Below, piece by piece: positions 10,342 to 28,316 of a stretch of DNA of 53,932 nucleotides. Source of the stretch: Sphingomonadaceae bacterium (lineage in GTDB: Bacteria > Pseudomonadota > Alphaproteobacteria > Sphingomonadales > Sphingomonadaceae); assembly GCA_019239915.1 (NCBI GenBank), contig JAFAZF010000041.1:1-53932 (forward strand), given 5' to 3'. The stretch's first letter is position 1; every line of letters starts with the position of its first letter. Position numbers and translations under genes: made by a program. Below the pieces are notes generated by a model. That model saw only the letters and a program-made list of their open reading frames with translations, had not been told where the DNA came from and ran no database searches.

Positions 10342-13300
10342 GCGGCGATGCGCCCAAATCCTGGCGAGCGCGGGTCCGCGAGCAGGCTGCGGAGGAGCCG
10401 GTCGATCCCACGCAAGGGCCGCCGCCCGGGCCGCCCTTTGCCGAACTCCGCGCCTGCACCAATTTCAGCTTTCTCGAAGGTGCGAGCCACCCGCACGAGA
10501 TGATCGCTGCGGCACGCGCACTCGGCCTGCATGCGATCACGATCGCCGACACCAACACGCTCGCCGGCATGGTCCGCACGCACGAGGCGGCGCGCAAGGA
10601 GCGCATCCGCCTGATCGTCGGTTGCCGGCTGGTCTTCACCGACGGCAGCGAGATGACCGTCCTGCCGCGCGACCGCGCCGCCTATGGCCGGCTGTGCCGC
10701 CTGCTGTCGATCGGCAAGAGCGAGGTCGTTCCCGATGAAAAGCGCGAGAAAAACAAGAATAATGTCATCCCGTTCCCCAGCTCTCGCCCCCCCGGCGAAA
10801 GCAGAGAGCCAGATCTGACGGTCGAGCAAGAACCCAGCCTGAGCCGGGATGACCAACCGGAGAGCAGCTGGCGCTCCAAGGGTCATATCACCAAGGCCGA
10901 GACGCGGCTGAGTTTCGACCAGGCTTGCGCTCTGGGCGAGGGGCTGATCGCGCTGGTGCCCGCGCCGACGAAGCTCGACGACGCCTTCGCCACCCGGCTC
11001 AAGGATTGGCGGCAGCGTTGGCCGGACGAGCTTTATCTCGCCGCGACGCCGCTCTGGCGCGGCGATGACCGTCTCCGCCTCGCGCGGCTCGCCGGCATCG
11101 CCCGTGCCGCGCAGGCGCCGATGGTGGCGACCAACGCCGCGCTCTATCACGGCCCCGAGCGCCGCGAACTGCAGGACGTGCTCGCCTGCGTGCGCATGGG
11201 CACGACCATCGCCGAGGCCGGTCTCGCGCTCGAGGCCCACGCCGAACGCCACCTCAAGCACGGTGCCGAGATGGCGGCGCTGTTCGCCGGCCATCCGGAG
11301 GCGATCGCGCATACGATCGCGATCGCCGACGCCTGCACCTTCTCGCTCGACGAACTGTCCTACAGCTATCCCGACGAGCCGGTGCCGCCCGGCTGGACGC
11401 CGGGACGACACCTGATCCATCTCGTCTACAAGGGCGCACGCGAGCGCTGGCCGGGCGGTGTGCCGGCGAAGATGCTGCCGATCATCGCCAAGGAGTTGCG
11501 GCTGATCCGCAAGCTTCGTTACGCAACTTATTTCATCACGGTGCACGACATCGTCCAGTGGGCGCGTCATCCCGATCGCAACATCCTCTGCCAAGGTCGC
11601 GGCTCGGCAGCGAATTCCGTCGTCTGCTATTGCCTGTTCGTGACCGCGATCGATCCGACGAAGCAGGACGTTCTCATTGAGCGCTTCATCTCGACCGACC
11701 GCCAGGAGCCGCCCGACATCGACGTCGATTTCGAGCACGAGCGGCGCGAGGAGGTGATGCAATACGTCTATCGCCGCTACGGCCGGCATCGTGCCGCGAT
11801 CGTCGCGACCGTCATCCATTATCGGTCGCGATCCGCGATCCGCGATGTCGGCAAGGCACTGGGACTAACCGAGGACATCACGGCGCGGCTTGCCGACACG
11901 GTGTGGGGCTCGTTCGGCCGCGGCATCAAGGACGAGCATGTCGATCGCACCGGGCTCGATCGGGATGATCCGCGCCTCGCCAAGGCGCTCGAGCTGACCG
12001 CGCTGCTCACCGCCAGCAACGAGCGCCCGGCATTTCCGCGCCATCTCTCGCAGCACGTTGGCGGTTATGTGCTGACCGATGGACCGTTGGTCGAGTCAGT
12101 CCCTGTCGGCAACGCCGCCATGCAGGATCGCACCTTCATCGAGTGGGACAAGGACGACATCGATGCGCTCAAGATGATGAAGGTCGATATCCTGGCGCTC
12201 GGCATGCTGACGGCGCTGCGCAAGGGGCTCGACATGCTGCGCGAGACATATGGGATGGCCGAGAAGAATGGTCGCCGGCTCGAACTCGCGACTATCGCTG
12301 AAAACGAGAAGAAGCGCGTCTATCGTATGCTGCAGAAAGCGGATTCGCTCGGCGTCTTCCAAGTCGAGAGTCGCGCGCAGATGAACATGCTGCCACGCCT
12401 CTTGCCAGAAAAATTCTATGATCTCGTCGTCCAGGTCGCGATCGTGCGGCCCGGGCCGATCCAGGGCAATATGGTCCACCCCTACCTCAAGAACCGCAAG
12501 ATCAAGCGCGAGACGGAGGCACGGGGCGAAGTTTATCAGGCGAACTTCCCCAAGCCGGATCCCGCCAACGGCCCGCCCGACGAGCTGGAAAAAATCCTCG
12601 GCAAGACATTGGGCGTGCCGCTCTTCCAGGAGCAGGCGATGAGGATCGCGCTCGACGCCGCCAAGTTCGACAGCAAGGAAGCCAACGAGCTGCGCAAGTC
12701 AATGGCGACCTTTCGCCATACTGGCACGATCAGCAATCATGAGAAGCGCATGGTCGATACGATGATCGAGCGCGGCTATGATCCCGACTTCGCCAAGAAT
12801 TGCTTTCGGCAGATCGAGGGCTTCGGTGAATACGGCTTTCCCGAAAGCCACGCCTGCTCGTTCGCGCACCTCGTTTACATCTCGGCCTGGCTCAAATGCG
12901 ATCATCCCGACGTGTTCGCCGCGGCTCTGCTCAACAGTCAGCCGATGGGCTTCTACGCGCCCGCGCAGATCGTCCGCGACGCGCGCGAACATAATGTTGA
13001 AGTCCGACATCCGGATATCAATGCAAGCGACTGGAATTGTACGCTAGAGAGGCGCGGTGGCCGTCGCCGTCGGGCCATGCGGCTCGGCTTGCGCATGATC
13101 CAGGGCTTCCGGCAGGATTGGGCCGAAACGCTCATCGAAGCCCGCGCCGCCGGTCTGTTCGAGAGCCTTGCCGAGCTCAAGCGGCGCACGGGCCTGCCCG
13201 GCGCCGCGCTCGACAGGCTGGCGGCGGCGGATGCGCTTGGTTCGCTCGATCTCGGGCGGCGGCAGGGCGCTTGGGCGGCGGCGGGGCTGCCGCGGCGCGC

Positions 13301-13865
13301 GCCGGCGCCGCTGTTCGAAGCGATGGGGCTCGACGAGGCGGACGGGCCGCCACCACCGGCACTGCCCGCGCCGAGCGCCGGCGAGGACGTGGTAAGCGAC
13401 TACCAGACGCTCAAGCTCAGCCTTAAGGGCCATCCCTGCGGTTTCCTGCGGCCGCGCCTCGATCGCGTCGGCGCGATTCCCTGTGCCCAGGTGGGCGCGA
13501 CGCGGGATGGGCGGCGCATCCGCACCGCCGGGGTCGTTCTCGTCCGCCAGCAGCCGGGCTCGGCCAAAGGCGTCGTCTTCCTCACCATCGAGGACGAGAC
13601 CGGCATCGCCAATCTCGTGTTGTGGCCGAGCGCGTTCGAGCGCTGGCGCCCGCAGGCGATGGGCGCGCGAATGCTCTTGGTGACGGGCCGTCTGCAGAAA
13701 TCGGAGGAAGGGATCGCGCATGTCGTCGTCGAGCGGCTCGACGATTGGAGCGCGCAATTGCGCGACCTTTCCGACGACATGGTCGGCGAACAACACGGCC
13801 GCACCACCGGCCGCCGCCATCCCCGCGACATGCGTATCATGCCGGCATCGCGTGATTTCCATTGA
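10338..13865 (+). CDS. dnaE2: Error-prone DNA polymerase DnaE2 (ImuC)
   Basis: C-family polymerase alpha subunit for SOS translesion synthesis, 1175 residues. It has an N-terminal PHP domain (FAELRACTNFSFLEGASHPHEMI), the catalytic motif PDIDVDFEHERREEVMQYVYRRYG, the second Asp motif KMMKVDILALGML, a helix-hairpin-helix region, an OB fold (ETGIANLVLWP) and the family-typical C-terminus HPRDMRIMPASRDFH. It is somewhat longer than common DnaE2 proteins because of an insertion of about 50 residues in the PHP region, which contains a 90-bp palindromic element (residues 143-172). The start overlaps the imuB stop. Confidence 0.95.
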   Translation: MSGDAPKSWRARVREQAAEEPVDPTQGPPPGPPFAELRACTNFSFLEGASHPHEMIAAARALGLHAITIADTNTLAGMVRTHEAARKERIRLIVGCRLVFTDGSEMTVLPRDRAAYGRLCRLLSIGKSEVVPDEKREKNKNNVIPFPSSRPPGESREPDLTVEQEPSLSRDDQPESSWRSKGHITKAETRLSFDQACALGEGLIALVPAPTKLDDAFATRLKDWRQRWPDELYLAATPLWRGDDRLRLARLAGIARAAQAPMVATNAALYHGPERRELQDVLACVRMGTTIAEAGLALEAHAERHLKHGAEMAALFAGHPEAIAHTIAIADACTFSLDELSYSYPDEPVPPGWTPGRHLIHLVYKGARERWPGGVPAKMLPIIAKELRLIRKLRYATYFITVHDIVQWARHPDRNILCQGRGSAANSVVCYCLFVTAIDPTKQDVLIERFISTDRQEPPDIDVDFEHERREEVMQYVYRRYGRHRAAIVATVIHYRSRSAIRDVGKALGLTEDITARLADTVWGSFGRGIKDEHVDRTGLDRDDPRLAKALELTALLTASNERPAFPRHLSQHVGGYVLTDGPLVESVPVGNAAMQDRTFIEWDKDDIDALKMMKVDILALGMLTALRKGLDMLRETYGMAEKNGRRLELATIAENEKKRVYRMLQKADSLGVFQVESRAQMNMLPRLLPEKFYDLVVQVAIVRPGPIQGNMVHPYLKNRKIKRETEARGEVYQANFPKPDPANGPPDELEKILGKTLGVPLFQEQAMRIALDAAKFDSKEANELRKSMATFRHTGTISNHEKRMVDTMIERGYDPDFAKNCFRQIEGFGEYGFPESHACSFAHLVYISAWLKCDHPDVFAAALLNSQPMGFYAPAQIVRDAREHNVEVRHPDINASDWNCTLERRGGRRRRAMRLGLRMIQGFRQDWAETLIEARAAGLFESLAELKRRTGLPGAALDRLAAADALGSLDLGRRQGAWAAAGLPRRAPAPLFEAMGLDEADGPPPPALPAPSAGEDVVSDYQTLKLSLKGHPCGFLRPRLDRVGAIPCAQVGATRDGRRIRTAGVVLVRQQPGSAKGVVFLTIEDETGIANLVLWPSAFERWRPQAMGARMLLVTGRLQKSEEGIAHVVVERLDDWSAQLRDLSDDMVGEQHGRTTGRRHPRDMRIMPASRDFH
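10764..10853. repeat. 90-bp palindromic element inserted in frame in dnaE2
   Basis: The element is bounded by 9-bp inverted repeats GTCATCCCG (10764-10772) and CGGGATGAC (10845-10853). Its length is exactly 30 codons and it starts on a codon boundary, so the frame stays open and codes VIPFPSSRPPGES...SRDD. An internal imperfect hairpin (CCCAGCCTGAGCCGGG) lies at the right end. It resembles intergenic REP-like repeats of sphingomonads (recalled, not searched). Confidence 0.65.
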
Positions 13866-14858: not shown

Positions 14859-15812
14859 GTGACGCTGCCTCGCGCCCCTTCGGTTTCCGTGATCGTGCCG
14901 GCCTATGGCGTCGCGCATCTGCTGGCGGACGCGCTCGCCTCGCTGCAGGCGCAGACGCGGGGCGACTGGGAGGCGATCGTCGTCGACGACGGTGCGCCGG
15001 ACGATGTCGCCGGTGCGTTCGCGCGTTTCGCCGATGACGATCGCGTCGGTCTCCTGCAAACCGACAATGGCGGCCTCGCTACCGCACGCAACCGCGCCGC
15101 GGCGATCGCGCGCGCGCCCTATCTCGCGCTGCTGGATGGTGACGATGCCTGGGAACCCGACTATGTCGCGACGATGCTTGCCGCGATCGAGGCCGATCCG
15201 GAAGTTGGCTTCGTCACCTGCGACGCCAGCTACTTCGGCCTCGCCGATCGTGCCGGGGAACGCTTCTCCCGCTTTAGCCGCCAGGATCCGCCGCTGACGC
15301 TGGAACGTGTGCTCCGGCGCCAGTTCAACATCTTCGTCGGCTGCATCATCCGCCGCGAGGCCTTCGACGCGATGGGCGGGTTCGACGGCGCGCTGCGATC
15401 TGTGGAGGATTTCGATCTGTGGGCGCGGCTGCTCGCCGCCGGCTGGCGCGGCGGCTACGTCGCGGCACCGCTGGTCCGCTACCGGCGCCGGCCTGGCTCG
15501 CTCTCGTCGAACGAGCGGACGATGCTGGCATGCGAGCAGGCGGTCTATGCCAAGCTCGCCGCCATGCTCGACGGCCGCTCCGAAGCCGCGACGGCGCGCG
15601 CGATGCTCGCCGACGTTGAGGCACGCGCCGCCTGGGCGGAAGGCGAGGCGCTGATCCTGTCGGGCGAGGCGCGCGCCGGCTTGCGCAAGCTTTCAGGGAT
15701 CGAGCAACGCTCGCTGCGCTGGAAGTTGGCGATGCCGGTGATGCGGATGATGCCGGCGCTGGCCGCGCCGCTGCTGCGTGTCAGGCCGCGATTGCCGGCG
15801 CCGCCGCGCTGA
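14859..15812 (+). CDS. Glycosyltransferase family 2 protein
   Basis: A GT-A fold glycosyltransferase of 317 residues, starting at a GTG. The nucleotide-sugar fold is seen in VSVIVPAYGVAHLLADALASL, VVDDGAPDD and the metal-binding LLDGDDAWEPDY. A later VEDFDLWARLLAAGWRGGYV carries the ED/W acceptor motif of GT2 enzymes. No membrane segment is obvious, so it is probably cytosolic or peripheral. Its last 32 bp overlap the convergent phosphopantetheinyl transferase gene. A link to the peptide cassette is possible by position only. Confidence 0.9.
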   Translation: MTLPRAPSVSVIVPAYGVAHLLADALASLQAQTRGDWEAIVVDDGAPDDVAGAFARFADDDRVGLLQTDNGGLATARNRAAAIARAPYLALLDGDDAWEPDYVATMLAAIEADPEVGFVTCDASYFGLADRAGERFSRFSRQDPPLTLERVLRRQFNIFVGCIIRREAFDAMGGFDGALRSVEDFDLWARLLAAGWRGGYVAAPLVRYRRRPGSLSSNERTMLACEQAVYAKLAAMLDGRSEAATARAMLADVEARAAWAEGEALILSGEARAGLRKLSGIEQRSLRWKLAMPVMRMMPALAAPLLRVRPRLPAPPR

Positions 15813-16455
15813 AAATCTCGATTGCGGGCATCGTCTCGCCCGCCGCGACGATCGCCGCGTGCAAACCCGGCAGCATCGCCAGGCCGGCGATCGACCAACC
15901 CTTCTGCGCCTTGACCATTCGCGCCGGCGTCTCCGGATCGACCGAGACCTCGAAGCCGTCGAGCGGGTGCGAGAGGCCCTCGCCGATCGCCTTCACATAG
16001 GCTTCCTTGCGCGCCCAGCAGTCGAAGAAGCCGGCGAGCCATCGTTCCGGTGGCAGCGCGTCGAGCGCGGCGATCTCGGCCGGCGCGAAGAAGCGTGCCG
16101 CGATCTCGGGCGAAGCGAGCGCCGGGTCGCGCCATTCGATGTCGCAGCCGAGCGGCATATCGCCGATCGCGATCATCGCGGTGTCGCGCGAATGCGAGAC
16201 GCTGAACTCGGGGCCGTCGATGACAGTGGGCTTGCCGTTGGCGCCGGCGCCGAACGCGAGCCGCGCGGGCGAGACGCCTAGATGCGGGGCGAGCACGCGG
16301 CGGAGCAGCGCCCGGCGCATGACGAAGCGCCGCCGATGGATGGCGAAGCGAAAGTTGTCCGCCTGCGCGCGCTCGGCATTGCTCAAGAGCGCGTGCGCCG
16401 CTTCCAGCTCAGGCGCCGACGCCGCCAGCGAGCAGAGATGGACCGCGATCGCCAA
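15781..16455 (-). CDS. 4'-phosphopantetheinyl transferase, Sfp type
   Basis: Transfers the phosphopantetheine arm from CoA to the conserved Ser of carrier proteins, presumably the two PCPs encoded just upstream. The protein has about 224 residues. Motifs are FSVSHSRDTAMIAIG, the Mg-binding PLGCDIEWRD and FFDCWARKEAYVKAIGEGLSHPLDGFEV, as in Sfp-type enzymes. No ATG gives a sensible N-terminus; the TTG at 16455 starts MAIAVHLCSLA, 4 bp after the NRPS stop, so TTG use is inferred. It is the last gene of the NRPS cassette. Confidence 0.88.
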   Translation of the reverse strand: MAIAVHLCSLAASAPELEAAHALLSNAERAQADNFRFAIHRRRFVMRRALLRRVLAPHLGVSPARLAFGAGANGKPTVIDGPEFSVSHSRDTAMIAIGDMPLGCDIEWRDPALASPEIAARFFAPAEIAALDALPPERWLAGFFDCWARKEAYVKAIGEGLSHPLDGFEVSVDPETPARMVKAQKGWSIAGLAMLPGLHAAIVAAGETMPAIEIFSAAAPAIAA

Positions 16456-16459
16456 GGAT

Positions 16460-19400
16460 CTATGCCGCGTCGGCGCGGCGCTCGGCTTCGCGGCGCAGGC
16501 GGCTGTCGTCGAGCAGCAGGCGCATGTGCCGCACCATGTCGGCGACATGCGGCTCCTCCAGCATCGTGCTGTGGCCGCCCGCAATTTCATGCGGCGAGAA
16601 CCAGCCGCGCACGACGCTCGCCCAGCCGTCGCGCGAATCGAGCACGTCGGGCCGTTCCTTGGGCTGGAACAGCGCGACGTCGCCGCGATAGATGCGCGGC
16701 CGATAGGCATAGGCGGCGCGATCGAGATCGGCGCGCAGCGCGCCGTGCGTGCCCTCGGCGGTGCGCGCCCGCGCAACCCCGGCGTCCTCGGCGAGCGCAT
16801 GGAGCCGATCGCGCAAATAGGTGCCGCGGCCGTCGCGCGCCTTCAGCCATTTGCGCAGGTGGAAGCGCAGCTTGCTCAGGCGCAGCCGCCACGGCCCGAT
16901 CGACTTGAGCGCACGCGGGTTCATCGCGTGGGCGAGGACGAGCAGCGGCACCTCCTCGCCGTCCGCAACGAGCCGCGATGCGACCGCGAAAGCGAGGATG
17001 CCGGACGTGCACCAGCCGCCGATATAATAGGGCCCGTGCGGCCGCTGCGCGCGCAGCGAGGCGACGACATGGCCGGCGAACTGCTCGAAGCTCAGCTGCT
17101 TGCCATATTCGCGCGCGATGATCGGATCGACCGGCAGACCGAGGAACGGCTGATCGGGACCGAGCCCCTGCGCGAGCGGCAGGAAGGCCGGGCCGGCGTC
17201 GAGCCAGATCAGCGGCGACTGCGTGCCCTGGGGCTGGATCGGCACGAGCGCGAACGGATCGCGCGCCTCGACGCTCGGTTCGTCGGCGGTGAGCCGCGCC
17301 GCCATCTCGTGCAGACGGTGGCCGCGGAAGAATTCGGCCATACCCATGCGGCGACCCCAATCCTGCTCGACGCGGCGGAGCAGCTTGGCGACGAGCAGCG
17401 AATGGCCGCCGAGCTCGAAGAAGCTGTCCTCGCGTCCGATCGTCTCGATGCCGAGTACCTCGCGCCAGATCGCGGCGAGCCGCTCCTCGGCGTCGCCATG
17501 GGGCGGGGCGGTATCGCGCGCTGCCATGCTGCCCTCGGGCGCGGGGAGTGCCTTGCGATCGATCTTGCGATTGGGCGTCATCGGCAGCGCGGCGAGCGTC
17601 TCGAAGCGCGACGGGATCATGTAATCGGGCAGCAGCGCGGCGAGATGGTCGCGCAGCGCCGCGGCGGTTGGCGTGTCGCCCGCCGGCACGACATAGCCGA
17701 CCAGCGCCTTCTCGCCGCTCGCGTCCGGCCAGCTGCGCACCGCCGCCGCGGCGACGTTCGGGTGCCTGGCGAGCGCGCCCTCGATCTCCTCGACCGCGAC
17801 GCGGAAGCCGCGAATCTTCTCCTCGGCATCGGTGCGGCCGAGACAATAGAGCGTGCCGTCCGGCGCGAAGCGCGCGAGGTCGCCGGTGCGGTAAAGCCGC
17901 ACGCCGGGCACGCCGCGCCGCTCGACGAAACGCTCGGCGGTGAGATCGGGCCGGCCGCGATAGCCGCGCGCGAGCCCGGTGCCGCCGATGTGGAGCTCGC
18001 CGACGACGCCGGCGGGAACGAGGTTGCCCGCGGCGTCGAGCACGAATGTGACGGTGTTGGCGATCGGATGGCCGATCGGCACGGTCTCGCCCGGCATGAT
18101 CCGTGCGACGGTCGACCAGATCGTCGTCTCGGTCGGCCCGTACATGTTCCAGAGCTGGCCGCAGCGGGTCAGCAGTTCGTCGGCAAGGCCACGCGAGAGC
18201 GACTCGCCGCCGCAGAGGATCTTCAGATCGCGCGTGCCGCGCCAGCCCGCCTCGATCAACGCGCGCCACGTCGCCGGCGTCGCCTGCATCACGCTCGGCT
18301 GCAGCGTCTCGATCAGCGCGCGCAGCCGCTCCGGATCGCGCGCCTCGTCGCGCGAGGCGAGCAGCAGGCGGCCGCCGCAGACCAGCGGCAGAAAGATCTC
18401 GAGCGCGGCGATGTCGAACGACAGCGTGGTGACGGCGAGCAGCGAATCGTCGCGGCCGAAGCCGGGCTCGTCGCACATCGCCAGCAGCAGGTTGGCGAGC
18501 GAGGCGTGGTTGATCTCGACGCCCTTGGGCTTGCCCGTCGAGCCGCTCGTATAGAGCACATAGGCGAGATCGTCGTCGGTGATCGCGGCGATGCCGCCGC
18601 CGGCGGGATCGGCATCGGCATGCACGTCGATCAGCGGCATCGGCCAACCGGGCAGCGTCGCGGCGAGCACGGGATCGCTGAGCAGCGCCGCCGGTGCCGC
18701 GTCCTCGACGATCTGATCGAGCCGCGCCGCCGGGAAGCCCGGATCGAGCGGCAGATAGGCCGCGCCCGTGCGCAGGATGCCGACGAGCGCCGCGACCATC
18801 GTCGGCGAGCGTTCGAGGTAGAGCGCGACGAGATCGCCTTTGCTGATGCCTCGGCCACGCAGCAGCGCCGCGATCCGCACCGCCTCGGCATCCAGCTCGG
18901 CATAGCTCCAGCGCAGTTCGCCCGAGACGATCGCGACGGCGTCCGGCGCCAGCTCCGCCTGGTCGGCGATCGCCTGTGGCAACGTGGTCGGCGGCAGCGG
19001 CCGCGCCGTCACCTGCCAGCCGCCGAGCTGCGCGTCGCGCTCCGGCGCGGTGAGCATCGGCAGATCGGCGATCGTCCGCTCGGGATCGTCGGCGATCGCT
19101 TCGAGCATCGTCAGCCAATGGCCGATCATGCGGCGGATCGTCATCGGATCGAACAGCTCGGTCGAATAGAGGAAGCGGCCGATCATTCCTTCGGGCCGCT
19201 CGTCGAGCTCGAGATAGAGATCGAACTTGGCGCCGCCGACGACGACGTCCATCTGCGTCAGGTCCCAGCCTGCGGGAAACGGATCGACCGGCGGCTCGAT
19301 CGAGAACAGGATGTTGAACAGCGGGTGCGCGCCGGGCGTGCGCTTGATGCCGAGATCGCGCACCACCTCGTCGAACGGCACCTCGCTCGCGCCGAGCGCG

Positions 19401-20488
19401 CCGAGCACGCTGTCGCGGACGCCGTTCAGATGCTCGGAGAAGCGCAGCGCCGAGCTGGGCCGCGTGCGCAGCGTCATCGTATTGAGGAAATAGCCGACGA
19501 CGCGTTCGAGCTCGGGGCGCCGGCGCAGATCGGTGACGCCGCCGACGAGGATGTCCTCCTCGCCGGTATAGCGATTCAGCATCGCCGTGAAGGCGGCGAG
19601 CAGCGTCATGTAGAGCGTGACGCCGTGCCGTTGCGAAAGCGCTCGGAGTTCTTCGAACAGTTCGAGCGGGATCAGGAAAGTTTCCATCGATCCCGCATGC
19701 GTCGGCACCGACGGCTTGGCGCGATCGCCGGGCAGCTCGAGCTTGGCCGGCGCGTCGGCGAGCGCGGTTCGCCAGTAGCCGAGCTGGCGCTGCATCGCCG
19801 GCGACTTGAGGTGTTCGCGCTGCCAGACGGCATAGTCGCCATAATGGAGCGTCGGCTCCGGCAGCGGTGAGGGCTCCCCCTTCTCGTAAGCGGCGTAGGT
19901 CGCCGCCAGTTCGGGCACGATCACGCGATAGATCGAGACGCCGTCGAAGATGATGTGGTGCAGCGTGAGGTAGAGGCGGTGCTCCTCGGCGCTCATCCTG
20001 ACGACGCGCGCGCGAAACAGCGGGCCCCGGGTGAAATCGATCGCCTCGCGCGCGTCGGCGCTGCCGAGCGCGAGCGCGGCGGCGTCGCGGTCCGCTTCCG
20101 GCAGGTGGCTCACGTCGCTGAGCGGGATCGCCAGCCGCTCGGCCGGGTGGATCGCCTGCACCGGCTCCGCGCCCGAAGCGTCGATCGTCGTGCGCCATGC
20201 CTCGTGGCGGCGCAGCACCTCGGCGACCGCGCGCTCCATCACGTCGTGGTCGTAGTACCCGAGGCGGTGGATCGTGATCGACTCGTTATAGAGCGGCACG
20301 TCGGGCGCCATCGCCGCATGCAGCCAGACCTGGCGCTGATCGGCCGAAAGCGGCACCGGAAGGCCGGCCGGCCGCGGCTGTACCCGATCGGGCGCCTGCG
20401 CCTTCTCCGCGCCGCCGTCGCCGCGCAGCATCCGCGCGAGCAGCTCGCGCTTGGCATCGGAAAGCGCCGGCGCCGCACTCATGTCCAT
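16460..20488 (-). CDS. Nonribosomal peptide synthetase, C-A(Gly)-PCP-TE
   Basis: A 1342-residue termination module. Condensation domain about 45-480, with intact HHIIFDG at 177-183. Adenylation domain about 500-985, with LYTSGSTGKPKG at 645-656, YGPTETT at 783-789 and Lys975 in NRKIDRK. The ten specificity residues read D692 I693 L696 Q735 L758 G760 M782 I790 W791 K975 (DILQLGMIWK), one change from the glycine code DILQLGLIWK. PCP with LGGHS, Ser1030. Thioesterase about 1085-1325, where GGWCTSG puts Cys1160 at the usual Ser position; His1306 (GGHSTML) is present, but the usual Asp after strand 6 is not (LLVLAHAMNP). It starts 1 bp after the P450 stop with GGGAG upstream. It probably joins the P450-modified starter to Gly and releases the dipeptide. 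Confidence 0.95.
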   Translation of the reverse strand: MDMSAAPALSDAKRELLARMLRGDGGAEKAQAPDRVQPRPAGLPVPLSADQRQVWLHAAMAPDVPLYNESITIHRLGYYDHDVMERAVAEVLRRHEAWRTTIDASGAEPVQAIHPAERLAIPLSDVSHLPEADRDAAALALGSADAREAIDFTRGPLFRARVVRMSAEEHRLYLTLHHIIFDGVSIYRVIVPELAATYAAYEKGEPSPLPEPTLHYGDYAVWQREHLKSPAMQRQLGYWRTALADAPAKLELPGDRAKPSVPTHAGSMETFLIPLELFEELRALSQRHGVTLYMTLLAAFTAMLNRYTGEEDILVGGVTDLRRRPELERVVGYFLNTMTLRTRPSSALRFSEHLNGVRDSVLGALGASEVPFDEVVRDLGIKRTPGAHPLFNILFSIEPPVDPFPAGWDLTQMDVVVGGAKFDLYLELDERPEGMIGRFLYSTELFDPMTIRRMIGHWLTMLEAIADDPERTIADLPMLTAPERDAQLGGWQVTARPLPPTTLPQAIADQAELAPDAVAIVSGELRWSYAELDAEAVRIAALLRGRGISKGDLVALYLERSPTMVAALVGILRTGAAYLPLDPGFPAARLDQIVEDAAPAALLSDPVLAATLPGWPMPLIDVHADADPAGGGIAAITDDDLAYVLYTSGSTGKPKGVEINHASLANLLLAMCDEPGFGRDDSLLAVTTLSFDIAALEIFLPLVCGGRLLLASRDEARDPERLRALIETLQPSVMQATPATWRALIEAGWRGTRDLKILCGGESLSRGLADELLTRCGQLWNMYGPTETTIWSTVARIMPGETVPIGHPIANTVTFVLDAAGNLVPAGVVGELHIGGTGLARGYRGRPDLTAERFVERRGVPGVRLYRTGDLARFAPDGTLYCLGRTDAEEKIRGFRVAVEEIEGALARHPNVAAAAVRSWPDASGEKALVGYVVPAGDTPTAAALRDHLAALLPDYMIPSRFETLAALPMTPNRKIDRKALPAPEGSMAARDTAPPHGDAEERLAAIWREVLGIETIGREDSFFELGGHSLLVAKLLRRVEQDWGRRMGMAEFFRGHRLHEMAARLTADEPSVEARDPFALVPIQPQGTQSPLIWLDAGPAFLPLAQGLGPDQPFLGLPVDPIIAREYGKQLSFEQFAGHVVASLRAQRPHGPYYIGGWCTSGILAFAVASRLVADGEEVPLLVLAHAMNPRALKSIGPWRLRLSKLRFHLRKWLKARDGRGTYLRDRLHALAEDAGVARARTAEGTHGALRADLDRAAYAYRPRIYRGDVALFQPKERPDVLDSRDGWASVVRGWFSPHEIAGGHSTMLEEPHVADMVRHMRLLLDDSRLRREAERRADAA

Positions 20489-20489
20489 C

Positions 20490-21770
20490 TCAAGCTCCCG
20501 AAGGGCGGTAGCGGATCGGCAGGCCGACCAGCCCGCGCAGGCCCGAGTTCGGGCGCCATTCGAGCGTCGCCTCGTCGGTGGCGAGCGCGATGTCGTCGAT
20601 CCGCTCGAGCAGCATCGCGTAGGCGGTGCGCGCCTCCATCCGCGCGAGCGGCGCGCCGAAGCAGAAATGCGTCGACCAGCCGAAGGCGAGGTGGCGATTG
20701 TCCTGCCGGCGCAGATCGAGCGTATCGGGATCGTCGAAGCGCTCGGGATCGCGGTTGCCGGCGGCCATCACCGCCATCACCGCCGCGCCCTGCTTGATCA
20801 GCTTGCCGCCGATTGTCGTGTCTGCCTTGGCGATGCGCGCGGTGTGCTGGCTCGGGCTCTCGAAACGCAGCAGCTCCTCGATCGCGGTTTCCATGATCTC
20901 CGGGTGCGCGCGCAGGTCGGCGAGCACGTCGGGTTGGCGGATCAGCGTGAGCAGGCCGTTGCCGATCAGGTTGGTGGTGGTCTCCTGGCCGCCGACCATC
21001 GTGACAATCGTGTTGGCGATCACCTCTTCCTCGGCGAGCCGCTCGCCATCGACCTCGGCAAGCATCAGCGCGCGGATCAGGCCGTCGCGCGGGTTCTTCT
21101 CCTGGTCGCGGATCGCGGCGCGGAAATAATCCTGCATCTCGGCGACGGTCCTGAGCACGCCACGAATGCGATCGGGGTTGTGCTGGAAGTTGCCGAGCAT
21201 CTCGGCGAAGCTCGCCGACCACGCCTTGAGCTGGCGATGATCCTCGAGCGGCACGCCGAGCAGTCCTGCGGCGACAAGCGCGGGAAAGGGCTCGGCAAAG
21301 TCCGCGATCAGGTCCATCTCGCCTTTCGGCGCGAGGCGATCGAGCAGATCCTTGGCGATCGCCTTGACCTTACTTGCCATCGCATCGACGCGGCGCGGCG
21401 TGAACGCGGCGTAGCAGAGCTTCTTCAGCCGCGTGTGCGCCGGCGGATCGAGGAACAGCATCTGCCGCGACATCATGTCGGCGACCGGCCCGAGCTTGGG
21501 CAGGCCGAGCGCGGTCATCTGCTTCTCGTCGGGCGTGCGATCGGCGGAGAAGGTCTGGAGGACGGTCAGCACGTCCTCGTAGCGCGTCACCACCCAGGTC
21601 GACATGAACGGGTCCCAATGGACCGGCGAGCGTTCGCGCAGGCTGGCGTAGAACGGATAGGGATCGGCATGGACCGCCGGATCGAGCAGCTGGAACAGGC
21701 TCAGGCTCGGATCGCTCGACGGATCGGCGGCCGGCTTCGCTCCAACAGCTATCGAGGTCGGCGCGTTCAT
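20490..21770 (-). CDS. Cytochrome P450 of the NRPS cassette
   Basis: A soluble bacterial class P450 of 426 residues. The I-helix motif is MVGGQETTTN (Glu263, Thr264/265), the K-helix ExxR is EELLR (Glu299, Arg302), and the haem ligand is Cys370 in FGWSTHFCFGAPLAR. The common FxxGxxxCxG signature has Ser in place of the first Gly. It lies between the two NRPS genes, with its ATG overlapping the A-PCP stop. P450s in this position commonly hydroxylate an amino acid bound to the carrier protein, for example at the beta carbon. The substrate Leu-PCP is inferred from the partner's code. A separate ferredoxin and reductase are not encoded here. Confidence 0.93.
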   Translation of the reverse strand: MNAPTSIAVGAKPAADPSSDPSLSLFQLLDPAVHADPYPFYASLRERSPVHWDPFMSTWVVTRYEDVLTVLQTFSADRTPDEKQMTALGLPKLGPVADMMSRQMLFLDPPAHTRLKKLCYAAFTPRRVDAMASKVKAIAKDLLDRLAPKGEMDLIADFAEPFPALVAAGLLGVPLEDHRQLKAWSASFAEMLGNFQHNPDRIRGVLRTVAEMQDYFRAAIRDQEKNPRDGLIRALMLAEVDGERLAEEEVIANTIVTMVGGQETTTNLIGNGLLTLIRQPDVLADLRAHPEIMETAIEELLRFESPSQHTARIAKADTTIGGKLIKQGAAVMAVMAAGNRDPERFDDPDTLDLRRQDNRHLAFGWSTHFCFGAPLARMEARTAYAMLLERIDDIALATDEATLEWRPNSGLRGLVGLPIRYRPSGA

Positions 21771-23593
21771 TCCGCCGCCCTCGCCTGGGCCTCCTCCTCG
21801 CTCATCGCGTCGAGCATGGCGAGCAGCACCTCCTCGATCTTGGCGGCGAGCTGGCGGATCGTCGGCGCCATGAACAGGTCGCGGAGCTGGAGATCGACGC
21901 CGAACGCTTCGTTGGCGCGCAGCACGACCTGCGTGCCGAGCAGCGAATGGCCGCCGAGCAGGAAGAAGTTGTCGTCGATGCCGACGCCGGTGCGGCCGAG
22001 CGCCGCCTCGAGGATCTCGAGCAGGCGGGCCTGTGCGGGCGTCTCCGCGGCGGCGGTGGCGGCCGACGTCAGCGCGTTGTGCGAACCGGGCGCGGGCAGC
22101 GCCTTGCGATCGAGCTTGCCGTTGGCGGTGAGCGGCAGCGCCGCCATCCGCACGAAGGCGGACGGAACCATGTAATCCGGCAGATGCTGGGCGCAGAACG
22201 CGCGCAGGTCCTCGGCGCTCGGCGCCTCGCCTGCGGGCACGATATAGGCGACGAGCTGCGTTTCTCCGCTGTCGTTGCGGGTCGCGACGGCGGCGGCAGC
22301 GAGCGCCGGATGGCGGGCGACGGTGGCCGCGACTTCGTCCGGCTCGACGCGGTGACCGCGGACCTTGGCCTGCCCGTCGGCGCGGCCGTGGAAGGCGAGA
22401 TCGCCATCGGCGCGCCACGAAGCGAGGTCGCCGGTGCGATAGAGCCGCTCGCCGTCATGCACGACGAAGCGCTCGGCGGTCAGGTCGGGGCGGCCGCGAT
22501 AGCCGCGCGCGAGCTGCGCGCCGCCGATGAAGATCTCGCCGATCTCGCCGGGCGCGACCGCATTCATGTCGGCATCGAGCAGGCGGACGAACGTGCCGTC
22601 GATCGGCTTGCCGATCGACGGCAGGCCGGACACGTCGCTGCCCGGCGCGATGACACCCGAGGTCGCGACCACGGTGCTCTCGGTCGGCCCGTAATTGTTG
22701 ACGAGCGCGAACGGCAGGTGCGCCGGCGGAGCGCGGTGCAGCGTGTCGGCGCCGGTGAGCAACGTGCGCAGGCGCGCGTCGACGGGCCAATCCATGTCGA
22801 GCAGCGGCTCGGCGAGCGCGGGCGGCGCGAAGGCGATGTCGATCCGGCGTTCGATCAGCCAGCGATGCAGGTGTGCCGGATCGGTGCGTGCCGCCTCGTC
22901 GATCAGCACGACGCAGGCGCCGGCGGTAAGATAGGGCCAGATCTCCCACACCGAGGCATCGAAGCCGAGCCCGGCGAGATGCGCGGCGCGGGTCTCCTCG
23001 GTGACAGCGAAGGCGGCGTTATGCCAGGCGATCAGCGCGGCGAGATTGGCGTGGCTGATCTCGACGCCCTTGGGCTCGCCGGTCGATCCCGAGGTGTAGA
23101 TCACATAGGCGAGCTGCTCGGGCGCGGTTGGGCCTGCGACATGGCCGGGATGCGCGGCGATCGCTGCGGCGTCGGCATCGAGCGCGACCAGCGGTGCCAC
23201 GGTCTCGCCGAGGCGCGCGGCGTGCGGCGCCTTGCTGACGATCGCAGTGAGGCCGGCATTGGCGCAGAGCGCGCGCAGCCGCTCGTCCGGCCATGCCGGA
23301 TCGAGCGGCAGGAAGCCGCCGCCCGCCTGCCACACGGCAAGTGCGGCGACGATCGCCTCATGGCTGCGATCGAGGCAGATCGCGACGAGCTTTTCCGGCC
23401 CGACCCCAAGCGCGGCAAGGTGCGCCGCGAGCCGGCCCGCCTGCTCATGCAGCGCGGCGTAGCTCAGCTTGCCGCAGGCGGCATCGAGCGCGGTGGCGTC
23501 GGGGCGCTGTGCGGCGAAGTCGGCGACGATGTCGGCGGCGGACCTGAAGACGGGCGCACCGCCTTCGGCTGGATGGATCGCGGTCATCTTCAT
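21767..23593 (-). CDS. Nonribosomal peptide synthetase loading module, A(Leu)-PCP
   Basis: A 608-residue stand-alone initiation module without condensation or thioesterase domain. Adenylation domain about 15-500: LAYVIYTSGSTGEPKG at 161-176, FDASVWEIW at 211-219, YGPTEST at 301-307, NGKLDRK at 491-497. The specificity residues D212 A213 W216 F255 L279 G281 N300 V308 V309 K493 spell DAWFLGNVVK, the published leucine code. PCP about 515-592 with LLGGHS, Ser550. A short acidic helix ends the protein and could be a docking element (inference). The stop overlaps the P450 ATG (ATGA). Start ATG 23593 or 23587. It is the first gene of the cassette, 138 bp after the Crp/Fnr regulator. Confidence 0.95.
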   Translation of the reverse strand: MKMTAIHPAEGGAPVFRSAADIVADFAAQRPDATALDAACGKLSYAALHEQAGRLAAHLAALGVGPEKLVAICLDRSHEAIVAALAVWQAGGGFLPLDPAWPDERLRALCANAGLTAIVSKAPHAARLGETVAPLVALDADAAAIAAHPGHVAGPTAPEQLAYVIYTSGSTGEPKGVEISHANLAALIAWHNAAFAVTEETRAAHLAGLGFDASVWEIWPYLTAGACVVLIDEAARTDPAHLHRWLIERRIDIAFAPPALAEPLLDMDWPVDARLRTLLTGADTLHRAPPAHLPFALVNNYGPTESTVVATSGVIAPGSDVSGLPSIGKPIDGTFVRLLDADMNAVAPGEIGEIFIGGAQLARGYRGRPDLTAERFVVHDGERLYRTGDLASWRADGDLAFHGRADGQAKVRGHRVEPDEVAATVARHPALAAAAVATRNDSGETQLVAYIVPAGEAPSAEDLRAFCAQHLPDYMVPSAFVRMAALPLTANGKLDRKALPAPGSHNALTSAATAAAETPAQARLLEILEAALGRTGVGIDDNFFLLGGHSLLGTQVVLRANEAFGVDLQLRDLFMAPTIRQLAAKIEEVLLAMLDAMSEEEAQARAAE

Positions 23594-23731: not shown

Positions 23732-24481
23732 TCAGCGCTGATGAAGATCGAGCGCTTCGAACTGGAGATAGGCGGGATCGAATTCCGAGACGGCGGCCAG
23801 GCCTTTGCCGTCGTTGATCGTGATCTCGCGCCCTTTGACATCGATCAGGCCATCGCGCTTCAACGCGCCGAACATGCGGTTGACGTGCACCGCGGTGAGA
23901 CCGAGCGCGTCGCCGATGTGGTTCTGCGTTGCCGGGAACAGAAATCCCTCGGAAGAGCAGGCGCCGATCTGCTCATAGCGGAGCGCCATCTCGCACAGCA
24001 GGTGCGCCAGCCGCGCCTTGGCCGAACGGCGGCCGATCGACAGCAGCCACTGCGCCATGATCGCGAGATCGATCATGCAATCCCGCCAAAAGGCGGTCGC
24101 GACCGCGGGGTGGCGCGCGGCGATCTTGCGCAGCGCCACGTGCGGAATACGGATGATGGTGCTCGCCGTCAGCGCCTGCAGCGGCACGGTAACGAGCGGC
24201 GAGACAACGGAATGAAGATCCGCCATGTCTCCCGGAATGTGGAGCGCGATGATCTGCCGCTCGCCGGACGACGTCTGTCCGAAGCGACCGACAAGCCCCT
24301 CAACCACGAGACAGGCATGGTCGATCCGCTCACCGAGGCGTACGATGTCCTGATTGGCGCGCACGCGGTGCTCGATCGTCGGCAGCGACAGGATCGCTTC
24401 GATCTCGTCGCCGTCTAGCACCGAGCGCCGTGATATGCGTGCGAGGAAGGCGGACAAAGCGCCGCGATTGTTGTCAGGCAT
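23732..24481 (-). CDS. Crp/Fnr-family transcriptional regulator
   Basis: A regulator of about 249 residues with an N-terminal cyclic-nucleotide-binding fold (RANQDIVRLGERIDHACLVVEGLVGRFGQ; RQIIALHIPGDMADLHSV) and a C-terminal helix-turn-helix (TQNHIGDALGLTAVHVNRMFGALKRDGLIDVKGREI). It has no FNR-type Cys cluster at the N-terminus, so an Fe-S oxygen sensor is unlikely; the ligand is unknown. The ATG at 24481 is 11 bp after the M3 peptidase stop. It lies directly upstream of the NRPS cassette on the same strand and is a candidate controller, but no clear binding palindrome was found in the 138-bp gap. Confidence 0.9.
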   Translation of the reverse strand: MPDNNRGALSAFLARISRRSVLDGDEIEAILSLPTIEHRVRANQDIVRLGERIDHACLVVEGLVGRFGQTSSGERQIIALHIPGDMADLHSVVSPLVTVPLQALTASTIIRIPHVALRKIAARHPAVATAFWRDCMIDLAIMAQWLLSIGRRSAKARLAHLLCEMALRYEQIGACSSEGFLFPATQNHIGDALGLTAVHVNRMFGALKRDGLIDVKGREITINDGKGLAAVSEFDPAYLQFEALDLHQR

Positions 24482-24492
24482 TGGCAACCAGC

Positions 24493-26547
24493 TCAGCTGA
24501 CCAGACGTCGCGCGCGAAGCAGCGCGGTCTCGTCCGGATCGCGGCCGCGGAAGGCACGGTAGGAGATCATTGGGTCGCGCGAATCGCCGCGCGCGAGCAC
24601 CTCGTCACGGAAGCGGCCGGCGAGTTCGGCATCGAAGATGTCCCCCTTCTCCTCGAACGCAGCGAAGGCGTCGGCGTCGAGCACCTCCGCCCAGAGATAG
24701 GCGTAGTAGGAGGCCGCGTAGCCGCCGTCGAACACATGGGTGAAGTGGGGCAGGCCGTGGCGCATCGGGATCTCGTCGGGCATGCCGATGCGCTCCAGCG
24801 TCGCGCGCTCGATCGCACGGACGTCCGGCTTCTCCTCGGTCGAACGGTGGATCGCCAGGTCGACGATCGCCGAGCCGAGGAACTCGACGGTCGCGAAGCC
24901 CTGGCCGAACTCGTCGGCGCATTGGATCGCGTCGATCAGCGGCTCGGGCACGCCGAACGCGCGCAGCACCTCCGGCGCGGTGATCCAATGCTCCATGAAT
25001 TTGGAGGGGAACTCGACGAAGTCGCGCGCCACCGCGGTCCCCGATTGGCTCGGATAGGTGACGCGGCTGAGCAGCCCGTGCATGGCATGGCCGAATTCGT
25101 GGAACAGCGTGCGCGCCTCGTCGAGCGAGAGGCGCGTCTCGGCTATTTCCGGCGCCTTGGCGAAATTGGCGACGGTGTAGATGATCGGCAGCACCGTGCC
25201 GTCCAGTGTCTCCTGGACCTGGAGCGAGCCCATCCACGCGCCGCCATGCTTTTCCGGGCGGCTGAAGTAATCGGTGTAGAGCAGGCCGACGGGGCTGCCG
25301 GCGCGGGTCACGCACCAGGGCCGGACATCGGAGTGGTAGCCCGGCACGTCGGGCCGATATTCGAAGCTCAGCCCGTAGAGCCGGCTGGCGGCCGCGAACG
25401 CAGCATCGCGGACCGAATCGAGCGGGAGATGCTGCTTCACCGCTGCGCCATTGAGCGCGTAACGCTCGCGCCGGATGCGTTCGGAATAGAAGCGCCAGTC
25501 CCAGCCCGCGAGCCGGAACGCCGGCTCGCCCTTGGCGGCGGCATCGGCGTCGATCAGCGCCTGCAACGCCGCCGCTTCCACCTTGGCATGGGCAAGCGCG
25601 GGGGTCCACACACGCATCATCAGCCCGTCGGCGGCATCGGGCGCGCGCGCCATGCTGTCCTCGAGCGCATAGTCCGCATAGGTCGCGTTGCCGAGCAGCC
25701 GCGCCTTCTCGCCGCGGAGCGCGACGATCTCGTCGATGAGCGGGCGATTGTCGTGGGCGCCGCCATCGTTGCGACCGACGAACGCCCGCCAAATGCGCTC
25801 GCGAAGATCGCGCCGGGTCGAGAAGCCGAGGAAATCCTCGACGTCGCCACGGTCGAGCGTGAACACATAGCGCCCGTCATGGCCGCGCTTTTCGGCGCGG
25901 CGTGCGGCGGCACCGCGCACGCTATCGGGCAGGCCGTCGAGATCGGTCTCGTCGATCACCATCTCCCACTCCGCCGCGGCGGCGAGGACATTGTGACCGA
26001 ACTGGATCGAGAGCTGGCCGAGCCGCTCGTCGATCGCAGCGAACCGCTTCTTCGCCTCGGGATCGAGCCCTGCGCCGCCGGCGATGAAGCCGCGGTGGCT
26101 CATGTCGACGAGCCGCTCCTGCTCCTCGCTGAGCCCGGATAGCTTACGCTGTTGCCACACCGCGGCGATCCGCCCGAACAGCGCGGGATCATGGCTGAGC
26201 TCGGTGCCGTGACGCGTCAGCATCGTCGAAACCTCGGGCTCGATCGCACGCAACGCGTCGTCAGACTGCGCCGAGGAGAGCGACCAGAACAGCCGGGACA
26301 CCCGGCCGAGTCGCGCGCCGGAGCGCTCATAGGCGGCGAGCGTGTTCTCGAAGCTCGGCGGCTCGGCGTTACCGGTGATCGCGGCGACCTCCGCCTTGCC
26401 CTCGGCGATCGCGACGCGGAAGGCGGGCAGGAAATCCTCGGTGCGCACCGCGTCGAACGGCGGCGCGCCCAGCGGCAACGTCCAGGGCTCAAGCAGCGGA
26501 TTGGAGCTGCTGGCGTTCGTCTTCGGCCTCTCGATCGTCGCGGTCAC
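24493..26547 (-). CDS. dcp: M3-family metallopeptidase (peptidyl-dipeptidase / oligopeptidase A type)
   Basis: A cytosolic zinc oligopeptidase of 684 residues, the usual length for Dcp/OpdA. The zinc motif HEFGHAMH is at residues 483-490, with the third ligand expected in the following helix (RDFVEFPSKFMEHW). FTHVFDGGYAASYYAYLWAEVLDADAF near the C-terminus is strongly conserved in the family. It degrades short peptides, often removing C-terminal dipeptides. Its start overlaps the upstream transglutaminase gene by 59 bp. Whether it acts on the product of the adjacent NRPS is speculation. Confidence 0.92.
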   Translation of the reverse strand: MTATIERPKTNASSSNPLLEPWTLPLGAPPFDAVRTEDFLPAFRVAIAEGKAEVAAITGNAEPPSFENTLAAYERSGARLGRVSRLFWSLSSAQSDDALRAIEPEVSTMLTRHGTELSHDPALFGRIAAVWQQRKLSGLSEEQERLVDMSHRGFIAGGAGLDPEAKKRFAAIDERLGQLSIQFGHNVLAAAAEWEMVIDETDLDGLPDSVRGAAARRAEKRGHDGRYVFTLDRGDVEDFLGFSTRRDLRERIWRAFVGRNDGGAHDNRPLIDEIVALRGEKARLLGNATYADYALEDSMARAPDAADGLMMRVWTPALAHAKVEAAALQALIDADAAAKGEPAFRLAGWDWRFYSERIRRERYALNGAAVKQHLPLDSVRDAAFAAASRLYGLSFEYRPDVPGYHSDVRPWCVTRAGSPVGLLYTDYFSRPEKHGGAWMGSLQVQETLDGTVLPIIYTVANFAKAPEIAETRLSLDEARTLFHEFGHAMHGLLSRVTYPSQSGTAVARDFVEFPSKFMEHWITAPEVLRAFGVPEPLIDAIQCADEFGQGFATVEFLGSAIVDLAIHRSTEEKPDVRAIERATLERIGMPDEIPMRHGLPHFTHVFDGGYAASYYAYLWAEVLDADAFAAFEEKGDIFDAELAGRFRDEVLARGDSRDPMISYRAFRGRDPDETALLRARRLVS

Positions 26548-27355
26548 CTGCGTCCACCTCCTCGGTCACCACCGTGAAGTTCGTCAGCAGCGATGGCCCG
26601 AAGGTGGTGGTGAGCGCCGTGTCGGTCGCGTCGCGCCCCCGGGCCATGAGAATGCGGCCGATGCGCGGCTTATTGTGCCGCGCGTCGAGCGTATACCATC
26701 GCCCGCCCAAAAACACGTCAAACCATGCGGAGAAATCCATCGGGTCCGGGGCGGCCGGCACGCCGATGTCGCCGAGATAGCCGGTGCAGTAACGCGCGGG
26801 GATGTTCATGCAGCGGCACAGCGTGACGGCTAGATGTGCGAAGTCGCGGCAGACGCCGGCCTGCTCCTGATGCGCATCCCACGCGGTCTTGCTCGGCCGC
26901 GCGTGATGATAGCCGAACTCGATATGCTCGTGCGTGTAATCGACGATCGCCTGGACGCGGTCCCAGCCGGGTCGGGTCTTGGCGAACAATGCCCACGCGG
27001 TATCCGCGAGCTTGTCGGTCTCGCAGTAGCGTGAGCCGAGCAGGTAGACGAGCGCATCGTCGGGGAGATGGTCGATCGCGATCTGTTCGGCGTCGGGGGC
27101 GCGGAGATCGTGCGTGCCGGGATCCTCGATCACGAAGTCGCAGGTGAAGCGGATTCCGCCCTCGGGCACCGTCAGCCGCGTGCCGACATTGCCGAAGCCG
27201 TCCACGAAGTCGTACATCGGCACTTCGGGATAGGTGATGATCCGCTGCGGCGTGCGGAGGTCGCGATGCCGCGACGGATGGACGTTGAGCAGCGCGAGCG
27301 TGTGCGTCGGCGACTTGGTTTCGATCGTGATGTCGTATCCGGCCCGAATGAGCAT
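26489..27355 (-). CDS. Transglutaminase-like protein with Ser at the expected catalytic His
   Basis: A 288-residue protein with the transglutaminase/papain-like core. The nucleophile region is QEQAGVCRDFAHLAVTLCRCMNIPARYC (Cys169), and the Asp region is RWYTLDARHN (Asp224). Where the family usually has HAW, this protein reads FSAWFDVFLGG, with Ser209 in the His position. It has a beta-rich N-terminal domain but no signal peptide. It may be a protease, amidase or pseudoenzyme. It lies 18 bp after the second transglutaminase gene and its 3' end overlaps the M3 peptidase start. Confidence 0.87.
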   Translation of the reverse strand: MLIRAGYDITIETKSPTHTLALLNVHPSRHRDLRTPQRIITYPEVPMYDFVDGFGNVGTRLTVPEGGIRFTCDFVIEDPGTHDLRAPDAEQIAIDHLPDDALVYLLGSRYCETDKLADTAWALFAKTRPGWDRVQAIVDYTHEHIEFGYHHARPSKTAWDAHQEQAGVCRDFAHLAVTLCRCMNIPARYCTGYLGDIGVPAAPDPMDFSAWFDVFLGGRWYTLDARHNKPRIGRILMARGRDATDTALTTTFGPSLLTNFTVVTEEVDAGDRDDREAEDERQQLQSAA

Positions 27356-27373
27356 GGTGTGGGATGGCTTTCG

Positions 27374-28297
27374 TCAGAGGGCGTGGGCGCGCGCCGGTGA
27401 TGCCGGTTCGAACGCTGGTGGATCCTGTCGTTGCAGGGTGATCTCGACGGCGACGTCCATGCCGGCATAGCTGCCCGGCAGGCCGCTCCAGGTGCCCGAG
27501 AGCGGCACCGCCTGATAGGGATCGCGCGCGATCGCGGTGCGGATCAGCCCGCGATTGCCGATGATGCCGTTGGTCGGATCGAACTCGACCCAACCGGAGC
27601 CGGGCAGGAAGATGCGCACCCAGGCATGGGTGTTGCCGCCGCCGACCACGCCCTCGGAGAGCTTGGTCGAATAGACATAGCCAGAGACGAAGCGGGCGGC
27701 GAGGCCGAGCGCGCGTGCCGCCTCGATCATCAGCACGGCATAATCGCGGCAGGTGCCGGCCTTCCTGTCGAGCGTCTCGATCGGCGATTGCGTGCCCTTC
27801 TCGTGGCGCGGGACGTAGGTAAACTCGCGGCGGATGGTGCGGGTGATCTCGGCGAGCATCCTCAGCGTGTCGGTTCGCCCGTCCTCACGCACGAAACGCC
27901 GCGCCCAGCCGTCGACGACGCGCCAGGGATCGTGATGCTGGCGCTCGATTGAGCGCAGCAGGTCGGGCATGTCCTCGGAGGAATAGGTGAAAGGGTAGCG
28001 GCGGGCGTAATCCTCGATCTCGACGTCATCGGGCCCCATCGGCATGTGCTCGACGGTGGCGGTGCTGGTGAACACGAGTGCGGTGGCGCGGCCGTCGAAG
28101 CGCGCGATCGCAACCGAATTGCCGAACACGTCCTGCAGCCACCGCAGGTCCGACGGCGGCGGCTCGATATCGAGCCGGGCCTCGAGCAGCCGCTGGTCGT
28201 GGCTCTCGCGCGGGCGGACCATGATGCGATGCTCGCCGAACGCGACCGGCTGGCGATAGGCGTAGCGGGTCACGTGCGATATGGTCAGCGTCGGCAT
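27374..28297 (-). CDS. Transglutaminase-like cysteine protease family protein, intact triad
   Basis: A 307-residue protein with the bacterial transglutaminase N-terminal beta domain (about 1-95: ISHVTRYAYRQPVAFGEHRIMVRPR) and a core with a complete triad: Cys183 in KAGTCRDYAVLM, His224 in GGNTHAWVRIF and Asp240 in WVEFDPTNG. I chose the ATG at 28297; a longer frame exists but adds a non-homologous tail that runs into the divergent gene. Members are often found in pairs, as here. The substrate is unknown. Confidence 0.9.
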   Translation of the reverse strand: MPTLTISHVTRYAYRQPVAFGEHRIMVRPRESHDQRLLEARLDIEPPPSDLRWLQDVFGNSVAIARFDGRATALVFTSTATVEHMPMGPDDVEIEDYARRYPFTYSSEDMPDLLRSIERQHHDPWRVVDGWARRFVREDGRTDTLRMLAEITRTIRREFTYVPRHEKGTQSPIETLDRKAGTCRDYAVLMIEAARALGLAARFVSGYVYSTKLSEGVVGGGNTHAWVRIFLPGSGWVEFDPTNGIIGNRGLIRTAIARDPYQAVPLSGTWSGLPGSYAGMDVAVEITLQRQDPPAFEPASPARAHAL

Positions 28298-28316
28298 CGA
28301 GGAGGCTCGTTCCCGC

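Follow-up and report, generated by a model that had tools for sequence, protein, structure and literature searches.

What does a compact four-gene nonribosomal peptide synthetase (NRPS) cassette in a Sphingomonadaceae bacterium encode, and is it more than an isolated arrangement? The cassette lies in the window, the whole 53,932-base stretch analyzed here, which is the entire contig C20 of a 3.6-Mb genome in 85 contigs (98% complete). We find that the four genes form a genuine and conserved NRPS unit of an ordinary kind, whose thioesterase (TE) is atypical. We put at about one in two the probability that this unit is a self-contained Leu-Gly dipeptide synthetase in which a cytochrome P450 would hydroxylate the substrate on its carrier and a TE with a cysteine nucleophile would release the product, probably in cyclized form.

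A complete two-module line in four genes

The sequence-only reading of this DNA had proposed four minus-strand genes at 15781-23593, in the order A-PCP (adenylation and peptidyl carrier protein domains), P450, C-A-PCP-TE (C, condensation) and 4'-phosphopantetheinyl transferase (PPTase). Coordinates and Pfam domains agree with this layout:

21767..23593, minus strand: A-PCP initiation protein, 608 aa; Pfam AMP-binding (254.8 bits), AMP-binding_C and PP-binding (52.4 bits); carrier motif LGGHS; code DAWFLGNVV (predicted Leu)
20490..21770, minus strand: cytochrome P450, 426 aa; Pfam p450 (101.6 bits); Cys-ligand loop HFCFG, I-helix GGQETT
16460..20488, minus strand: C-A-PCP-TE protein (the synthetase), 1342 aa; Pfam Condensation, AMP-binding, AMP-binding_C, PP-binding and Thioesterase; motif HHIIFDG; code DILQLGMIW (predicted Gly)
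16463..17266, minus strand: TE domain of the synthetase; Cys nucleophile in GGWCTSG, invariant His at the usual type I TE Asp position and general-base His (GGH), from a 12-row alignment, comparison TEs and a PDB profile search
15781..16455, minus strand: Sfp-type PPTase, 224 aa, TTG start; Pfam ACPS (63.1 bits); best NCBIfam model HetI (126.1 bits, cutoff of 370 not reached)

All domains claimed for the four proteins exceed the curated Pfam cut-offs; for the PPTase, an additional N-terminal PPTase model falls just under its own. The A, PCP, C and TE domains, together with the HHIIFDG, LGGHS and adenylation motifs, place the line among modular type I NRPSs, and an ACPS-superfamily domain in a protein of ~220 aa beside the synthetase is that of an Sfp-type PPTase. 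The junctions match those claimed earlier: the A-PCP and P450 genes share an ATGA overlap, the P450 and synthetase genes are separated by 1 bp (TGA-G-ATG), and the synthetase and PPTase genes are separated by 4 bp (TAG-ATCC-TTG).

That the line is complete and self-contained, with two modules, had also been proposed, and is borne out by the Pfam domains and by Leu and Gly codes that are nearly unchanged among relatives. A Pfam Condensation search of the whole genome (85 contigs) for additional modules matched the C domain of the cassette alone, A domains elsewhere not being part of this search; given this single match, the contigs of the genome show no additional condensation module. The genome holds two ACPS-family matches, the cassette PPTase and one on contig 62. 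With four genes in less than 8 kb and its own PPTase, the cassette packs a complete assembly line into very little DNA and could be expressed as a whole.

The cassette recurs within one sphingomonad family

Relatives were sought with the TE domain as query; the window's own genome is counted in every sample, and in each genome scoring was limited to some of the first-look candidates (at most six in the larger TE searches). Close TE relatives occurred in 2 of 10 genomes of the genus (E ≤ 1e-20), 7 of 397 genomes of the bacterial family and 9 of 396 genomes of the order (both at E ≤ 1e-25). Combined, 12 different genomes of about 621 Sphingomonadales carry a close TE relative, all within one family, and a class-level sample of 385 genomes returned the window's own genome and one distant TE match (34%). 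A scan of named genomes, using patterns that came from the window TE alone and may miss close relatives differing in those short stretches, returned four cyanobacterial TEs at 28–34% identity; these have a Ser nucleophile and the usual Asp, and we rejected them as a different system. A plasmid scan matched 2758 records, all below 60% identity, and the matches listed (15 of 2758) were generic NRPSs.

Ten of the 11 relatives show A-PCP, P450 and synthetase genes in the window's order. In the eleventh (G283), the contig begins inside the P450 gene, which puts the A-PCP gene out of view and leaves a partial P450, the synthetase and the PPTase visible. A PPTase match adjoins the synthetase in all 12 loci (10 by gene call, L015 and L016 by tblastn), and the full four-gene order is present in 11 of the 12 cassettes, window included, the twelfth being truncated by its contig end. 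Identity to the window is 54–61% for the synthetase and 63–73% for the P450. In the three relative pairs computed, the nonsynonymous rate (dN) was lower than the synonymous rate (dS) for every cassette gene, with ratios of about 0.05–0.38.

Because the same gene order occurs in 10 other genomes and a partial eleventh, with dN/dS ratios in this range, the cassette is more than a chance assembly, and its conservation is strong enough to imply a selected product. The cassette recurs as a family within a single sphingomonad family and is not an isolated case. Here the sequence-only reading, sound on the two-module line and the Leu and Gly codes, fell short: it overlooked both this recurrence as a family and the atypical TE. 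Its in-line role for the P450 on carrier-bound leucine and its product of hydroxy-Leu-Gly minus water are still predictions.

The adenylation codes predict leucine and glycine

The nine code positions were placed by alignment to the GrsA numbering. The first A domain reads DAWFLGNVV in 10 of the 11 rows that could be read (counting the window), with an N-to-D change in G542 (DAWFLGDVV); the second reads DILQLGMIW or DILQLGVIW, differing by M or V at one position, in all 12. In a 2025 survey (PMC12283262; here and below, statements on cited papers refer to the parts of them that were available), DAWFLGNVVK is among the commonest codes in the Leu/Ile/Val set, and DILQLGMIWK is the code of four Gly domains whose modules contain a glycine-cleaving monooxygenase. 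DILQLGVI has likewise been assigned to Gly (PMC5466765), and DAWFLGNVVK occurs in Leu domains for a product with 3-hydroxy-Leu (PMC7524897). Leucine for the first A domain and glycine for the second are therefore strong predictions. The Pfam scan found no monooxygenase domain inserted in the second A domain of the cassette.

The thioesterase departs from the textbook triad

The motif GGWCT(S/N)G is present in all 12 cassette TEs, which identifies the nucleophile as Cys. The position of the type I catalytic Asp, after the sixth strand, is occupied by His in all 12; the His falls on the Asp in an alignment with L004, a cyanobacterial TE, and in the profile alignment with AB3403 (PDB 4zxh), a four-domain NRPS of Acinetobacter baumannii. 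The active site of the releasing enzyme departs from the textbook triad.

We compared these residues with TEs from 35 other loci, of which 29 gave a profile hit; 7 lacked a clear motif and L055 and L061 are the same TE, leaving 21 distinct TEs, tallied by eye and including the near-identical cyanobacterial copies L005-L007. The nucleophile is Ser in 19 and Cys in two (L030 and L047), and the Asp position holds Asp in 19, Glu in one (L041), Gly in one (L047) and His in none. By eye, the L047 TE pairs its Cys nucleophile with Gly in place of the usual Asp, as has been described for ObiF1. Type II TEs, in a separate alignment that excludes L044 (probably in the wrong frame), have Gly, Ser or Ala at that position and are also without the Asp, so loss of Asp alone does not set the cassette apart; the invariant His does.

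The loop after the seventh strand holds one invariant Asp and one residue that is always acidic (E or D) in the 12-row alignment, and acidic residues also occur in this loop in ordinary TEs. The invariant Asp has an aligned Asp counterpart in L030, a TE that retains its usual Asp, and the always-acidic residue precedes the catalytic Asp of type II TEs by one position (an alignment off by one); neither can therefore be called a relocated acid. A clean match of the triad acid to ObiF and SulM, which we had entertained, was withdrawn after the type II alignment.

In a profile search of the PDB, the nearest TEs were 7dxo/7crn, AB3403 (third best, spanning profile positions 22–253 of 268) and NocB, and no entry named ObiF or SulM was among the 56 sequences at E ≤ 1. 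These neighbors bear on the possibility that the TE merely hydrolyzes the chain to linear hydroxy-Leu-Gly. Hydrolysis is a common TE outcome (PMC11298585), and the nearest profiles are those of type I TEs, among which the NocB TE releases by hydrolysis (PMC6711958). However, the title of 7crn names a cyclizing TE, a Cys nucleophile with His at the Asp position is unusual among the compared TEs, and a linear dipeptide would presumably be exposed to cell peptidases; we give hydrolysis a small chance.

Structure prediction was not used for the active site: a model from a four-row alignment had a mean pLDDT of 51.6, below 50 in the key loop, and its Foldseek matches reached a TM-score of at most 0.43 among those listed (50 of 928). 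Separately, the alphaproteobacterial genome G894 (L030, L033) has, in what by eye looks like a hybrid of polyketide synthase and NRPS, a Cys TE that retains the usual Asp and is a possible intermediate form.

The P450 gene co-occurs with the rest of the cassette

P450BioI acts on carrier-bound chains. By family profile, P450BioI and PksS are the best solved relatives of the cassette P450; a single-sequence search of solved structures placed 8yhn on top, followed by PksS and P450BioI. The Cys-ligand loop and I-helix motifs are conserved across the aligned cassettes. The P450 gene lies between both synthetase genes in all 11 cassettes that show both, and it overlaps the C-A-PCP-TE gene in 8 of 12, judged by gene-caller starts that are unreliable in places (the A-PCP protein is called at 791 aa in L029 and 502 aa in L028).

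Used alone as query against the 397 family genomes (E ≤ 1e-95, at most four candidates scored per genome), the P450 matched six, all TE-positive; the seventh TE-positive genome of this sample is G283, whose P450 gene is cut by the contig end. In this sample, close P450 relatives are restricted to cassette carriers. Among the cassette genes, the P450 gene also shows the lowest dN/dS in each of the three pairs. The position of this gene, its co-occurrence, the low dN/dS and the relationship to P450BioI are contextual points in favor of a presumed action on a carrier-bound substrate.

A different order of events would have the synthetase first make cyclo(Leu-Gly) and the P450 oxidize the free ring afterwards, on the model of CypX, which oxidizes cyclo(Leu-Leu) on the way to pulcherrimin. 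Ring closure of this kind would be helped by the free amine at the N terminus and by Gly at the C terminus, and the best NCBIfam model for the P450 is a cyclodipeptide-synthase-associated one. Its score of 209.5 bits, however, is far under the cutoff of 500, with an unrelated P450 model close behind at 196.1 bits, and a gene placed between the synthetase genes rather suggests action during assembly. We consider oxidation of the free ring unlikely.

A proposed route to a cyclized hydroxy-Leu-Gly

From the observed genes, domains, gene order, conservation, codes and TE Cys and His, we infer the following chemistry, release mode included. The PPTase would arm both carrier proteins, and the A-PCP protein would load L-leucine. 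The P450 would hydroxylate the Leu bound to the first carrier, most likely at the beta carbon, both site and timing being presumed; the C domain would couple hydroxy-Leu to Gly loaded on the second module, and the TE Cys would take the dipeptide as a thioester. Release would probably occur by ring closure via the free N-terminal amine (giving a cyclo-dipeptide) or the new hydroxyl (giving a lactone or oligolactone), and not as the free acid. Pfam searches of genome and cassette found no second Condensation-family domain as a candidate epimerization or starter domain, and the C motif is ordinary; the N terminus should, on this evidence, be free for ring closure. We favor ring-closing release because the Cys nucleophile is invariant and the Cys TEs of ObiF and SulM cyclize (PMC6668435, PMC11298585). 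A beta-lactone product was set aside, the terminal residue being predicted as Gly.

Several points weigh against this scheme. The cassette has no known product. Only 5 of 11 cassettes have an overlap between the A-PCP and P450 genes (gene-caller starts), so the P450 is not coupled to the loading gene everywhere. Resemblance to other P450s does not fix the substrate, and P450BioI and PksS head lists of generic relatives. Oxidation at Gly instead of Leu is conceivable, because the exact code DILQLGMIWK belongs to Gly modules with a glycine-cleaving monooxygenase (PMC12283262). For release, ObiF and SulM cyclize on the side chain of the last residue, which the predicted Gly does not offer; AB3403 is also a Cys-nucleophile enzyme, and an uncharacterized one (PMC11298585); and the change from Asp to His could mean weakened or altered catalysis. 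A single heterologous expression could yield the product and test how a Cys TE acts when the usual Asp is missing.

Neighboring genes define the limits of the unit

The cassette is surrounded by the following genes:

23732-24421, minus strand: Crp/Fnr-type regulator (Pfam), 138 bp upstream of the A-PCP gene and in the same direction
14889-15812, plus strand: family 2 glycosyltransferase, downstream and convergent, its 3' end overlapping the PPTase end by 32 bp
26489-28378, minus strand, and 28281-29105, plus strand: two adjacent transglutaminase-like genes, adjoining an N-formylglutamate amidohydrolase-type gene
10185-13865, plus strand: DnaE2-type error-prone DNA polymerase (NCBIfam), near the cassette

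Upstream beyond the regulator, which is not a recurrent neighbor among the relatives compared, lies an M3-family peptidase (best NCBIfam model Dcp, below cut-off). The extended flanks of three relatives (L034-L036), listed by gene call, look unrelated by eye. In L014, a 33% identical glycosyltransferase stretch lies beyond the flippase described below.

The convergent glycosyltransferase overlapping the PPTase end in the window, and a polysaccharide flippase that is the convergent neighbor in 6 of 11 relatives (by BLAST grouping, two of the six Pfam-scanned), raise the idea that, instead of leaving as a free product, the dipeptide is passed on to another molecule such as a cell-surface glycan. 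However, flippases of this family are common in the bacterial family (54 of 149 genomes at E ≤ 1e-60), so we keep a polysaccharide link only as a weak, rather improbable rival. Neither the window nor five of the relatives show the linkage, the flippase relative of the window genome sitting on a different contig. Besides the flippase, no flanking family recurs in more than two loci of the fetched stretches, which delimits the unit to four genes and likewise argues against glycan transfer.

Cassette history conflicts with that of its carriers

We compared a tree of the synthetase from all 12 carriers with an rpoB tree of 10 (G272, without a match, and G283, with fragments only, were left out), both midpoint-rooted. 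By rpoB, the window genome pairs with its genus mate G004 (support 100/100); by synthetase, the window clusters with G162, G376, G487, G567 and G590 (100/100), and G004 falls in the opposite clade. This conflict, together with the scattered distribution, suggests horizontal transfer or two old copies differently lost. More tentatively, the cassette may represent a new family of minimal NRPSs that moves horizontally and whose TE, of a Cys-His-His type with His standing in for the catalytic Asp, would close an unusual small ring on hydroxy-Leu-Gly to give an undescribed product class, a reading that we regard as somewhat unlikely.

Comparison with known systems

In NovH/NovI and NikP1/NikQ, a standalone A-PCP protein stands next to a P450 that beta-hydroxylates the carrier-bound amino acid. 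The cassette resembles both systems in that its A-PCP protein adjoins a P450. Whereas those pairs yield a free hydroxy amino acid, the pair in the cassette is followed by a C-A-PCP-TE protein predicted to add Gly, and its predicted substrate is Leu.

The literature searched (titles and opening abstracts of the best matches, with few subscription papers) held no description of the cassette. A survey of Sphingomonas biosynthetic gene clusters (PMC9716278) does not mention P450, adenylation or thioesterase in the available main text; PMC10681181 reports a Novosphingobium bin with one incomplete NRPS, and PMC10204066 and PMC10880069 provide context only.

For release, SulM and ObiF1 have been described as the sole NRPS TEs that reposition the Asp, both with a Cys nucleophile and both forming a four-membered ring (PMC11298585, PMC6668435). 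The cassette TE shares the Cys nucleophile, and like them it has no Asp where one normally follows the sixth strand, a position held by Gly in ObiF1. In contrast to both, it has an invariant His there, and its predicted Gly terminus (12 of 12 codes) would offer no beta nucleophile for a four-membered ring. Because its profile is nearer to 7dxo/7crn, AB3403 and NocB and its terminus is predicted as Gly, we do not file this TE with ObiF and SulM. With AB3403 it shares the Cys nucleophile, but AB3403 retains Asp where the cassette TE has His (profile alignment; PMC11298585).

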